Assembly (NCBI GenBank): GCA_944323695.1
Contig: CALUTI010000010.1
Location: 1-42,833 of the forward strand
DNA from: Candidatus Gastranaerophilales bacterium
GTDB lineage: Bacteria > Cyanobacteriota > Vampirovibrionia > Gastranaerophilales > Gastranaerophilaceae
Reading direction: 5' to 3'
DNA length: 42,833 nucleotides
Under the pieces are notes generated by a model. It was not told the DNA's origin and ran no database searches. It saw only the letters and a list, made by a program, of their open reading frames with translations. How positions within the stretch are numbered: the first letter of the stretch is position 1; each line of letters starts with the position of its first letter. Both the position numbers and the translations under genes were made by a program. Positions 2,957 to 27,003 of this stretch are shown here, one piece after another.

Positions 2957-3886
2957 CTATAAAATTTCAAGTTCCAGACCTTCATGTGCCATAACAACTC
3001 TGTCAGGGAATTTATTTGAATAGTGTTCTTTGATTCGGTTTAATTTTTCATCATCATATTCGGGATCAAAGTGGAAAAAGACAAGTTTGTCAGCATTAGT
3101 CTGTCTCTGGGCTTCAATTGCCATATCGAATGTAGAGTGCCCGTACCCTTGTTTTGGAACATGCTGATTCAGATAATCTTCAGTCGTATATTGCGCGTCA
3201 TGAATAAGAACATTACAGCCCTTTGCAAAATCAACCAATCTTTTATCACCGCCAAGATAACCTTCCTTATCCGTTGCATAAACAATTGATTTATCCTTAT
3301 ATGCAATTTTATAAACCATTACACCATCTTGCGGATGGGCATAAGATTTATAACATGTAATAATAACATCATCATTTTGAGGCTGAATATTTGAAGAAAC
3401 TTCAACAACTTCCGGCTCAACACCATGTCTTAAAATAATTGCCTGCTTTGAATTAATATTTCTAATATTAAGTTTTCCTGCAATATCACCCAAATCGAGC
3501 GGAAAAGTTTTGCCGAATAATATATTTGACAGTTCATCAGATAAATTTTCTTCTTCACAAACAGAGCCAAAAACCGCCAAACGTGTTGAATTCAGATGCA
3601 AAGGTCTGAAAAATGTGAACCCCTGGATGTGATCCTGATGAATATGAGATAAAAGCACAGTAGCTTTTACCGGCTGTCTTTCCTCAGGTGTCATGCCGGA
3701 AGTTATATATTTTTCCATTAATTCATTACCGACATCAATCAGCCCAGTTCCTGCATCAAGAATTATAAGGTGTCCGCCTGCATTAACTTCAACACATGCA
3801 GTATTGCCTCCATACTGCAAATAATCTTTATTAGCTATCGGATAACTTCCTCTGACACCTCTGAATTTTAAACTAAATTCACTCAT
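2957..3886 (-). CDS. MBL-fold metallo-hydrolase
   Basis: A 309-residue metallo-beta-lactamase fold hydrolase. The opening FRGVRGSYP and GGNTACVEV...LIILDAGTG are the usual first strands of this subfamily. The zinc motif HIHQDH is at 81-86; a later metal-ligand aspartate is in YATDKEG and a further histidine in FFHFDP. Relatives act on phosphodiester or cyclic nucleotide substrates (PhnP / class II cyclic phosphodiesterase-like), but the substrate here is not determinable. There is no signal peptide, so it is cytoplasmic. Its start overlaps the end of the upstream metallophosphoesterase by 8 bases, indicating a shared transcript; two phosphoesterase-type hydrolases side by side suggest related work. 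Confidence 0.85.
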   Translation of the reverse strand: MSEFSLKFRGVRGSYPIANKDYLQYGGNTACVEVNAGGHLIILDAGTGLIDVGNELMEKYITSGMTPEERQPVKATVLLSHIHQDHIQGFTFFRPLHLNSTRLAVFGSVCEEENLSDELSNILFGKTFPLDLGDIAGKLNIRNINSKQAIILRHGVEPEVVEVSSNIQPQNDDVIITCYKSYAHPQDGVMVYKIAYKDKSIVYATDKEGYLGGDKRLVDFAKGCNVLIHDAQYTTEDYLNQHVPKQGYGHSTFDMAIEAQRQTNADKLVFFHFDPEYDDEKLNRIKEHYSNKFPDRVVMAHEGLELEIL

Positions 3887-23070: not shown

Positions 23071-23373
23071 TTATAGTATTGAACAAATATCCTGATACGT
23101 AGTTAATACTCTCAATATCCTTAAAATTTTGTCATCAATTATTCTATAAATTACTAAATAATTCTTTTTAACTATATAAAATTTTACATCCAAATATGTA
23201 AAATCTTCTCTTATTTTTCCAAGATTTGGATGTTTACATAAAGTTTCAAATGTTTTGTTAAATAATTTTACAAATTTTATTGCTGCATTTTTATTATCTT
23301 GAGCAATATAATCAGAAATTATTTCAATATCATTATATGCTTTACCTGTAATTTCAAGTTTCAAACTATTCAT
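23071..23373 (-). CDS. RelE/ParE-family toxin
   Basis: A 100-residue basic protein of the RelE/ParE superfamily. Visible features are the N-terminal strand-helix (LEITGKAYNDIEIISDYIA), the HPNLGK loop, and the C-terminal strands YIVKKNYLVIYRIIDDKILRI. Relatives either poison DNA gyrase (ParE) or cleave mRNA on the ribosome (RelE). It overlaps the antitoxin gene by 8 bases, antitoxin first, the normal order. The gene ends 6 bases from the convergent Cys-rich peptide gene. Confidence 0.85.
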   Translation of the reverse strand: MNSLKLEITGKAYNDIEIISDYIAQDNKNAAIKFVKLFNKTFETLCKHPNLGKIREDFTYLDVKFYIVKKNYLVIYRIIDDKILRILRVLTTYQDICSIL

Positions 23374-23602
23374 ATTTTTTTATTAACTTTTCCATAGCGG
23401 AATGCCCGTCTAAAATTACAGTATCATTCCAACCTTCTTCAATTTCTTTGTTTAATTGCACAATTCTTTCCTGTGAAATTCTGTCTTTTGAAGCCATCAT
23501 TCTTAATGCTTCTCTGATAACTTCGCTTACGGAATTGTATAAGCCTGATGCAACTTTGTCCTGCACAAATTTTTCTAATGTCGGAGTTAATGATATGTTC
23601 AT
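23366..23602 (-). CDS. ParD-type antitoxin
   Basis: A 78-residue ribbon-helix-helix antitoxin (MNISLTPTLEKFVQDKVAS, then YNSVSEVIREALRMM), with a C-terminal tail that would wrap the toxin. The frame is open to 23623, but ATG 23602 is preferred: GAGG stands 7 bases upstream and the family starts with this block. It would repress its own promoter by binding the palindrome at 23634-23658. Confidence 0.87.
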   Translation of the reverse strand: MNISLTPTLEKFVQDKVASGLYNSVSEVIREALRMMASKDRISQERIVQLNKEIEEGWNDTVILDGHSAMEKLIKKYE

Positions 23603-23633
23603 ACTATACCTCATTAATAACAAATTATATCTT

Positions 23634-25273: not shown

Positions 25274-26593
25274 TTATAAGCCTAATGCGTGGGCAAAAAG
25301 CTCACCTGCTTTGTGGTTATAAAATTTTCCGTCATCTTTAGCAAATAAATTTTCCCAATGGCTTTCGGGGGTGCCGTTTTCAGAATATGAAGGATTTGTC
25401 ATCATTATATGATGTGTATTTGTGTCATATCTCAAAGGAAAAATATCACCAGTCTGCATAAAGCTCGGCAACTTATCGCTTGCAAGATAAAACCCGAAAA
25501 GCGCTGAATTAATCCTGTTAAGCCTTTGTTCATAAGACAAACCGCCTTCGTTGTTGTCATTTTCGACCTCAACGCCGGGTGCGTAATCCCTCATATATTT
25601 GCATTTTTCAGATAAATCTCTTACTGCAAAAAAATCATCCCCCGTAATATAGTCAGTCCCTGCGGTTAAACCCATATTTCTATATCGTTCAAAGTCATCG
25701 GAACTTTTTTCACCTACAAAACTGATATCCGTCTTCCCGGAACGTAAACGGATTTCGTTCAAAATATACTGCATCTGCGAATATTCAGGCAAAGCCCCTA
25801 CACCTGTGTAATTCTCCATATCATACCCGCCAATGTGTTTTGCAGAATCAATAAACATAGCTTCAAATCCTAAGTTCATAAGTTTCACACATTCATTGAT
25901 ATAAATTTCAACATGCTCGGGGTTTTGCCAATCAAAAGTTACATCTTGCTTATCCGGATAGGAAACCTTCATCTGATCGGCAGAAATCACCATTCTAAAG
26001 CCTGATTTTATACCTCTAAAATGCACCAAATCGTTAAACGCTTTCAATTGTTCTTCCGGTGAAATTTTGTCTGAAATACCATACGAAATAACATTATCAC
26101 TATATCCGGCATTGAGTTTTATGCCGTAAATTGAATTTTCTTCGTGTGGTCCTTTGTTGTAGCCGTCTCCGTAAATATTCGGAAAAATTTGCGAAATGAT
26201 AACGCAATTTGCCCAACTTTTTGCAGAAGGCGGAATTGCCGGAAGAATTTTAATCATACTCAAAATCCCGCAGCAGTCTTTTTCCTTGTGCATTTCAGAT
26301 ATTGCGCGGTTATTTATCTCTATATAATTTGCAAGACGTCCCCACCTGTCGCCATAATTCGGGGTTTCTATAATGTCGGGGAATCTTTCAAAAAATATAT
26401 TCCCTTCCGAAAGTGTAACAATTGACTCGACAGCTTTTTTTAAAGAACGTTTTAAAAGCTCGGCGGGTACTATATTTGCCACCCATTTTTTAGTGGTATT
26501 TATAGCATAATAAGTATGTATTTCTGTCCAGATATCTTTATTAAGCTTTGTCGTATGTCCTAAAGCTTTTAAAAGTTTATTAACACAATTCAT
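25274..26593 (-). CDS. GH13-like (alpha-amylase superfamily) protein
   Basis: A 439-residue protein with landmarks of the alpha-amylase TIM barrel: a beta-4-like segment GFEAMFIDSAKHIGG with the nucleophile Asp, a beta-5-like ISFVGEKSS with the acid Glu, and a later ALFGFYLASDKLPSFMQTGDIFPL resembling the closing region of GH13. The usual NHD/HD pair in region IV is not obvious (there is ENDNNEGG), so activity may be altered or lost. No signal peptide: intracellular. The frame is open to 26749, but that would cross the neighbouring antisense promoter; ATG 26593 starts a normal N-terminus, with TATATT 7 bases upstream and no Shine-Dalgarno. The gene starts 12 bases upstream of nothing conserved and ends 12 bases from the ferritin-like gene. 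Confidence 0.55.
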   Translation of the reverse strand: MNCVNKLLKALGHTTKLNKDIWTEIHTYYAINTTKKWVANIVPAELLKRSLKKAVESIVTLSEGNIFFERFPDIIETPNYGDRWGRLANYIEINNRAISEMHKEKDCCGILSMIKILPAIPPSAKSWANCVIISQIFPNIYGDGYNKGPHEENSIYGIKLNAGYSDNVISYGISDKISPEEQLKAFNDLVHFRGIKSGFRMVISADQMKVSYPDKQDVTFDWQNPEHVEIYINECVKLMNLGFEAMFIDSAKHIGGYDMENYTGVGALPEYSQMQYILNEIRLRSGKTDISFVGEKSSDDFERYRNMGLTAGTDYITGDDFFAVRDLSEKCKYMRDYAPGVEVENDNNEGGLSYEQRLNRINSALFGFYLASDKLPSFMQTGDIFPLRYDTNTHHIMMTNPSYSENGTPESHWENLFAKDDGKFYNHKAGELFAHALGL

Positions 26594-26663: not shown

Positions 26664-26691
26664 TTGACAAAGCCCAAAAACGAGTTATAAT
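26664..26691 (+). promoter_or_regulatory. Strong promoter of an antisense RNA
   Basis: TTGACA (26664-26669), a 16-base spacer and TATAAT (26686-26691): both boxes are full consensus. Transcription would start near 26698 and run through the small-peptide gene on the other strand. Confidence 0.75.
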
Positions 26692-26702
26692 ATAAATAGG
26701 GT

Positions 26703-26722
26703 GGCTGTCGCGCCCGACAGCC
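26703..26722 (-). terminator. Hairpin at the 3' end of the small-peptide mRNA
   Basis: Perfect 8-bp stem 26703-26710/26715-26722 (ggctgtcg/cgacagcc). On the minus strand it follows the peptide stop by 10 bases and is followed by an A/T-rich stretch, so it may end the mRNA; it also forms the 5' hairpin of the antisense RNA. Confidence 0.5.
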
Positions 26723-26732
26723 TTTACAGACC

Positions 26733-26807
26733 CTACAAGAAAAGAACAATAATTTGTAAAAATGCTATCAGTGCGTTGATAGCATTTTTTGCTATCTTTC
26801 TTTTCAT
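26733..26807 (-). CDS. Candidate type I toxin: 24-residue hydrophobic peptide
   Basis: A 25-codon frame (24 residues) starting MKRKIAKNA and ending IAFLQIIVLFL: basic N-terminus, then a hydrophobic helix long enough to enter a membrane. AAGGAGG (26822-26816) lies 8 bases before the ATG, the best Shine-Dalgarno in the region. A consensus-like promoter lies upstream, with a leader of about 70 nt that can hide the Shine-Dalgarno. A convergent antisense RNA covers most of the frame. These are the hallmarks of type I toxins such as Fst, TxpA or AapA, but the peptide does not match a family that I know. The hairpin 26758-26789 lies within the frame, so the same sequence must be read through by the mRNA. 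Confidence 0.55.
   Translation of the reverse strand: MKRKIAKNAINALIAFLQIIVLFL
26758..26790 (+). terminator. Terminator of the antisense RNA, inside the peptide gene
   Basis: Perfect 13-bp stem 26758-26770/26777-26789 with a 6-base loop and a run of six T (26785-26790). Being palindromic with A/T tails, it could also partly terminate the minus-strand peptide mRNA. Confidence 0.8.
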
Positions 26808-26813
26808 TGTTAC

Positions 26814-26862
26814 CACCTCCTTCCCACCTTTTTACAGTAAAGTTTGTTGTGCGATGGAGGTG
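26814..26862 (-). promoter_or_regulatory. Shine-Dalgarno sequestering pair in the peptide leader
   Basis: On the minus strand CACCTCC (26862-26856) is perfectly complementary to GGAGGTG (26820-26814), which contains the Shine-Dalgarno of the peptide gene; the stem extends by a U-G and an A-U pair. The nascent leader would fold and block ribosome entry, as in known type I toxin mRNAs. Confidence 0.55.
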
Positions 26863-26882
26863 ATTTGGTCTACCCTGTTTAA

Positions 26883-26911
26883 ATTATAACAACTTAATTT
26901 TTATTGGTCAA
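26883..26911 (-). promoter_or_regulatory. Promoter of the small-peptide mRNA
   Basis: Minus strand TTGACC (26911-26906), exactly 17 bases, TATAAT (26888-26883). The start is expected near 26876. Confidence 0.75.
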
Positions 26912-27003
26912 CAAAAACAGGAAATATTATTAATAAATTAAATTTATTCCATTTTTATTTTTACGTGTTAAACTAAAATCGTAAAGATAAAAAGGAGAGA
27001 ATT

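Follow-up and report, generated by a model that had tools for sequence, protein, structure and literature searches.

Does a 24-codon open reading frame (ORF) that encodes a hydrophobic peptide and faces a convergent antisense RNA form a toxin gene under RNA control? This is the question raised by a locus at 26698-26911 of a 42,833-nt stretch of DNA (the window; contig CALUTI010000010.1 of assembly GCA_944323695.1) from Candidatus Gastranaerophilales bacterium, a member of the Gastranaerophilaceae. Our computational analysis points to a type I toxin-antitoxin-like module, likely the representative of a new family in Gastranaerophilaceae, in which the tiny membrane-type peptide is probably a self-toxin. 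The layout of the locus goes beyond chance, since the window mRNA folds at -74.1 kcal/mol against -38.0 +/- 4.0 kcal/mol for dinucleotide shuffles (z -9.1), the antisense RNA gives a z of -5.3, and four further copies are present in the same genome and dozens in relatives.

Anatomy and copies of the locus

The first-pass annotation of this DNA had proposed a minus-strand promoter, a leader of about 70 nt and a strong Shine-Dalgarno (SD) sequence ahead of a gene for a basic-then-hydrophobic peptide of 24 residues, opposed by a perfect plus-strand promoter for a 93-nt RNA ending in a terminator within the peptide gene; all its coordinates were upheld by direct reading of the window sequence. On the minus strand, the sense promoter (TTGACC-17-TATAAT, 26911-26883) matches the consensus at 11 of 12 positions and predicts an mRNA start near 26876, and thus a leader of ~69 nt. 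The strong SD of the window copy, AAGGAGGTGG (GGAGGTG at 26820-26814), precedes the ATG at 26807 of the putative toxin gene (26733..26807, minus strand), which encodes the 24 aa of MKRKIAKNAINALIAFLQIIVLFL and closes with a TAG stop. The complementarity of a leader motif to the SD, also claimed before, was found in the anti-SD sequence CACCTCC (26862-26856, minus strand) by sequence, fold and cognate pairing. What had escaped the earlier annotation is the pairing that closes the mRNA: its 5' end, AGGGTAGACC (26867..26876, minus strand), carries two complementary blocks, one to GGTCT, located at the stop codon and beyond it, within the post-stop tag TAGGGTCTG (26727..26735, minus strand), and the other, AGGGT, to ACCCT at the 3' end (26698..26702, minus strand), whose CCCT is invariant in the family alignment. 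The minimum-energy fold of the window mRNA is accordingly a closed multibranch structure.

On the plus strand, the antisense promoter (TTGACA-16-TATAAT, 26664..26691) matches the consensus at 12 of 12 positions, is the sole such match within 2.5 kb and is kept across the family. A hairpin inside the coding sequence (26758..26789, folding on both strands), followed on the plus strand by a run of six T, is the predicted terminator, so that promoter and terminator together delimit a putative antitoxin RNA of ~93 nt (26698..26790), starting near 26698 as first proposed. It begins with a hairpin that is, on the other strand, the 3' untranslated region (UTR) hairpin of the mRNA (26703..26722, predicted in folds of both strands, with a loop that varies among paralogues), and it would be complementary to the 3' UTR and to the ORF up to ~16-18 nt from the start codon. 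By sequence, this locus has the RNA side of a type I system, an RNA that is encoded with a promoter and terminator of its own and is complementary to the mRNA of the putative toxin, and on the protein side a small ORF with strong translation signals and a hydrophobic peptide conserved as protein.

The search for paralogues that the first-pass annotation had suggested revealed four further copies, bringing the genome to at least five copies of the layout. DNA search recovered the window copy, clear second and third copies and the promoter-side end of a fourth (two further hits, L007 and L008, were chance matches); reading the loci gave four intact units of exactly 24 codons each, and a pattern search added a fifth copy with a different peptide, MVFSITEKALWLILIILIVLKIKR. 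With a profile built from the four peptides found first, matches were obtained in many genomes of this genus, and 74 coding variants, which encode 73 distinct peptides, were collected in all. In a mechanical scan of the fetched loci the spacing between -10 box and start codon (73-80 nt) and that between stop codon and antisense -10 box (41-63 nt) held in most copies. A whole-collection pattern composed of the SD, a 24-codon ORF, the post-stop GG and CCCTAT was run over 84,980 bacterial and archaeal species genomes and returned 56 stretches, 51 of which are true members; the remaining five are chance matches, three having internal stops and two lacking promoters, and include those in Anaerolineae, Chloroflexi, archaea, Cerina and Weeksellaceae. 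Record names of the members are overwhelmingly Candidatus Gastranaerophilales, Melainabacteria, uncultured cyanobacterium or plain metagenome-assembled genomes, and those filed as Fusobacterium sp. CAG:439, Muribaculaceae NALB_7821b_15 and Acinetobacter RUG672 are probably mislabelled bins. At E <= 0.001, 71 of the 73 positive genomes in an order-wide sample and 39/39 in a phylum-wide sample belong to the family of the window genome. Hydrophobic micro-ORF, sequestered SD and overlapping antisense RNA are maintained together as one unit in this bacterial family.

Two further sequence elements accompany the unit. The box AATAATATTTCCT (26919..26931, minus strand) lies just upstream of the sense -35, as it does in the copies of the genus; of its four exact occurrences in the genome, three lie at elements and one (L168, G000:C9:82708-82720) near what we take, by eye, to be the end of an rRNA operon. 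In the leader, a loop segment of the form CACACA...AAGAAATCGG, represented in the window by CACAACAAACTTTACTG (~26821-26855, minus strand), is nearly invariant in the family alignment and kept across all peptide classes.

Selection on the peptide and on the RNA

The peptide frame is under purifying selection. The conserved frame with synonymous bias that the earlier annotation had named as a check was indeed observed among relatives, with a ratio of nonsynonymous to synonymous substitution rates (dN/dS) of 0.44 (bootstrap 0.36-0.57) across 34 independent pairs, a value in which some bias remains from the ORF filter used to gather the copies. It stays at 0.45 outside the hairpin codons, and the corresponding ratio of proportions (pN/pS) is 0.49 in frame versus 0.93 and 1.33 in the other two frames. 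A search blind to ORFs, run on loci already fetched via the peptide, found 24 aa in 39 of 43 elements. The encoded peptides carry a mean charge of +2.5 and are strongly hydrophobic over residues 9-24 (mean Kyte-Doolittle value 2.4).

The RNA is under selection as well, independently of the peptide. Among 43 non-redundant elements, cognate pairing of 5' tag and post-stop tag reaches -9.41 kcal/mol versus -7.10 kcal/mol for non-cognate partners, and that of SD region and leader -18.30 versus -15.34 kcal/mol (p <= 1e-4 in both cases, by permutations that ignore kinship among copies); the SD:anti-SD helix covaries, and so do the two sides of the tag, typical pairs being AGACC/GGTCT, AGTACCC/GGGTACT and AGCTCC/GGAGTT. 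The hairpin of the coding sequence is stronger than expected from synonymous recodings (mean z -2.86, with 33 of 43 copies below -2 and the window copy at -2.8), and the ORF is thus doubly coding, because this hairpin serves as the predicted antisense terminator and as part of the folded mRNA. These tests of cognate pairing and synonymous recoding replaced an automatic RNAalifold run on a MAFFT alignment, which returned only 5 pairs because the registers of tags and hairpin shift between subtypes.

Every antisense RNA matches the mRNA of its own locus over its full length by construction, but those of the five copies in this genome share at most 16 continuous complementary nucleotides with paralogous mRNAs; the copies should therefore be mutually insulated, each antisense RNA being, by sequence, specific to its own copy.

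The same RNA architecture is found around peptides with little resemblance to each other. A pattern restricted to the leader matched 25/191 genomes of the family and none in a reversed control; the antisense -10 motif follows all 28 distinct leader matches examined, and a stricter version of the motif 16 of the leader-pattern loci. Besides the 24-aa type, the ORFs of these loci include a conserved 32-aa type (MxLGFFLILDFIIKxLKEKAPELELLELFLNS), exemplified by LKEKAPELELLELFL at L177, L183, L191 and L195-L197 on the shared chassis. Where fully read, the variants of 28-32 aa end at TAA with a TAGGG tag beyond it, and since the tag lies past a separate stop it is an RNA element and not part of the ORF. 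Leader, 5'-3' closing tags, 3' hairpin and antisense promoter are common to peptides of the types MKRxIIKxAL, MxFxITEKALWLIL and MVDKIIMLLLAFSxAVIAL (24 aa each) and to the 28-32-aa LKEKAPELELLELFL type. It is tempting to speculate, at what we would call even odds, on one antisense-controlled chassis serving as an interchangeable cartridge for at least four dissimilar hydrophobic micro-peptides; control and toxin would then have recombined or diverged separately, in a lineage without a described type I system.

A proposed mechanism and its competitors

From this anatomy we infer transcription of both RNAs, their duplex formation, an activation step and toxicity, in the following manner. Sense transcription from the promoter at 26911 would yield an mRNA of ~180 nt, in which the leader hairpin CACCTCC:GGAGGTG buries the SD and the 5' end is held both by the 3' end and by the stretch that includes and follows the stop codon, resulting in a closed, stable and translationally poor molecule. 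The perfect promoter of the opposite strand, constitutive in appearance, would supply an antisense RNA of ~93 nt starting at the 3' end of the mRNA. A position ~16 nt from the start codon falls within the ribosome footprint; antisense binding may thus block the footprint of the initiating ribosome and mark the duplex for cleavage of the RNase III type, which is how we infer that this RNA acts. Should its level fall, a remodelled or processed mRNA would be translated, and the short cationic-hydrophobic peptide would act on the membrane of the cell itself.

Some results weigh against this scheme. The SD (26814..26820, minus strand) is buried in the equilibrium folds of every state modelled (full-length, 3'-truncated, nascent and antisense-bound), with a mean unpaired probability of ~0.09 and of ~0.0 for the window copy. 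Activation of hok proceeds by 3' trimming that frees the SD, and neither this nor the equivalent release of aapA was reproduced here, 3' truncation leaving the SD unpaired probability at ~0.09. In addition, no intrinsic terminator was identified for the sense transcript. Because the SD is buried in all folds, the scheme requires some further means of activation, for instance a standby site, remodelling or processing of the leader, and the obvious candidate for it is the conserved CACACA...AAGAAATCGG segment of the leader.

Type I toxins typically occur in many copies, with a patchy distribution, decaying members and more than one layer of silencing, and the loci described here resemble them in each of these respects. 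This likeness, together with the fact that no export or processing genes were recognised beside the copies, speaks for a self-toxin and makes it unlikely, in our judgement, that the antisense-controlled membrane peptide has another role, be it as a small membrane regulator, a stress peptide or an exported antimicrobial. In favour of such a role, a toxin and another small membrane peptide look alike at the level of sequence, and four of six tested type I toxin candidates of Microcystis were non-toxic in E. coli (PMC12390103).

A different view would take the structured RNA and its antisense partner as the conserved object, a regulatory pair in which the peptide is incidental, and it draws on the strong selection on RNA structure and on the dissimilar peptides carried by one chassis. 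The in-frame purifying selection, unchanged outside the hairpin codons, the strong SD, the near-constant length in the copies found blind to ORFs and the hydrophobicity of every variant leave this view with a low probability. We regard as very improbable a short leader peptide regulating a downstream gene by attenuation or translational coupling, suggested in the window by a gene of unknown function (25274-26590) that lies downstream of the peptide gene on its strand, because the context varies between copies, whose neighbours in either orientation include ferritin and what we take, by sequence recognition, to be prs, a NUDIX-type gene, hisS and DNA polymerase III subunit-like genes, and the unit has moreover its own antisense promoter and 5'-3' closing pairing and occurs as three elements in a row on one contig of another species (L017, presumably at prs).

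Close relatives differ in whether the module is present at a given site. Between ferritin and the gene of unknown function, where it lies in the window, two relatives also carry it, a relative with a ferritin of 99% identity has an empty site, and another (L150, G009) has a decayed copy that has kept antisense promoter and 3' hairpin while the peptide gene is deleted; no target-site duplication was seen. Frameshifted and fused copies were also found. At another locus (L009, ~3380-3400) the stop codon of a gene which we take to be prs (ribose-phosphate pyrophosphokinase) shares bases with the antisense -35 box TTGACA. The copies appear to be chromosomal, since the plasmid collection gave no match and viral contigs no credible one: the pattern hit there was a single chance match with an internal stop, and of 75 matches of the leader pattern at most one also had a downstream antisense motif, with no plausible ORF. 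Elsewhere in the window (23071-23623, minus strand), two small overlapping genes, presumably for a ParE/RelE-type toxin and a ParD-type antitoxin as judged by eye, resemble an ordinary type II pair.

Novelty and relation to known type I systems

The first-pass annotation had assigned the peptide to no known family, and searches of Pfam, NCBIfam, Rfam, PADLOC and PHROGs bore this out, returning no match for the family. Rfam at permissive E-values yielded only scattered chance matches, and the weak Pfam, NCBIfam and PHROGs hits (BRX_N, SbtA and PHROGs of unknown function) were far below cut-offs or insignificant. Among the papers searched, none linking type I toxin-antitoxin systems with Melainabacteria was found, and two that name Gastranaerophilales along with toxin-antitoxin appear unrelated. 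Reports of type I systems are so far confined to Proteobacteria, Firmicutes and Tenericutes, besides one recent Microcystis candidate (PMC12390103). We have filed the locus, on the features above, as a putative new variant of type I toxin-antitoxin outside any named family. A large multi-copy family with more than 70 natural peptide variants would extend the range of type I systems to Gastranaerophilaceae and offers a natural covariation data set on how a toxin mRNA is kept closed; it also makes testable whether a single RNA control module can drive more than one toxin, and why several copies, each with its own specificity, persist in an uncultured gut lineage. Such loci are, moreover, invisible to present family libraries.

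Among the known systems, hok/Sok has a peptide about twice as long as the 24-aa one and without sequence relation to it, and its antisense RNA targets the mok leader; what it shares with our locus is the 5'-3' fold-back of the toxin mRNA under antisense control (PMC6733600). The par/Fst locus of Enterococcus (RNAI/RNAII) likewise combines a small hydrophobic peptide, an SD held in an intramolecular stem-loop and convergent RNAs (PMC8309996). Unlike par/Fst, our locus showed neither direct repeats nor a bidirectional terminator common to both RNAs, and the APXXXGXXX core of Fst/Ldr is absent, the window peptide having no proline and this residue being missing from the five commonest at every position of 69 distinct 24-aa peptides. 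In txpA/RatA of Bacillus the toxin mRNA is overlapped by its antisense RNA at the 3' end, and control also involves how accessible the SD is. The bsrG/SR4 pair of the same genus shows both features too (PMC8309996), and this type of overlap was also found in our locus. The toxins of these two systems are, however, of 38 aa (BsrG) or longer, with cationic or polar C-termini, against 24 aa here, our antisense terminator lies inside the toxin ORF, unlike theirs, and no similarity to the 24-aa peptide was detected, Pfam and NCBIfam giving no match.

In the related phylum, the msoT1/msoA1 pair of Microcystis aeruginosa was the first in Cyanobacteria to be reported as a type I candidate, and its antisense RNA overlaps coding sequence and 3' UTR as ours does; the ten Microcystis type I candidates measure 39-81 aa, none being of 24 aa (PMC12390103). 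It is the only cyanobacterial type I candidate that we found in the literature, and unlike our peptide the MsoT1 toxin has 63 aa and two predicted membrane segments, with homologues reported in other cyanobacteria only. The aapA/IsoA loci of Helicobacter and Campylobacter differ from ours in that the antisense RNA described here covers the 3' half of the mRNA, unlike IsoA, and no peptide similarity was detected, the library searches giving no match. In aapA the 3' end itself supplies the anti-SD, and 3' truncation frees the SD and activates translation (PMC6733600), whereas our anti-SD resides in the leader and truncation leaves the SD buried in silico. Both systems nevertheless consist of multi-copy chromosomal loci for a membrane-type peptide, of ~30 aa in aapA/IsoA, and both join an antisense RNA to a highly folded mRNA with a CU-rich anti-SD and the long-distance pairing of 5' and 3' ends (PMC6733600) that we find in the Gastranaerophilaceae family.
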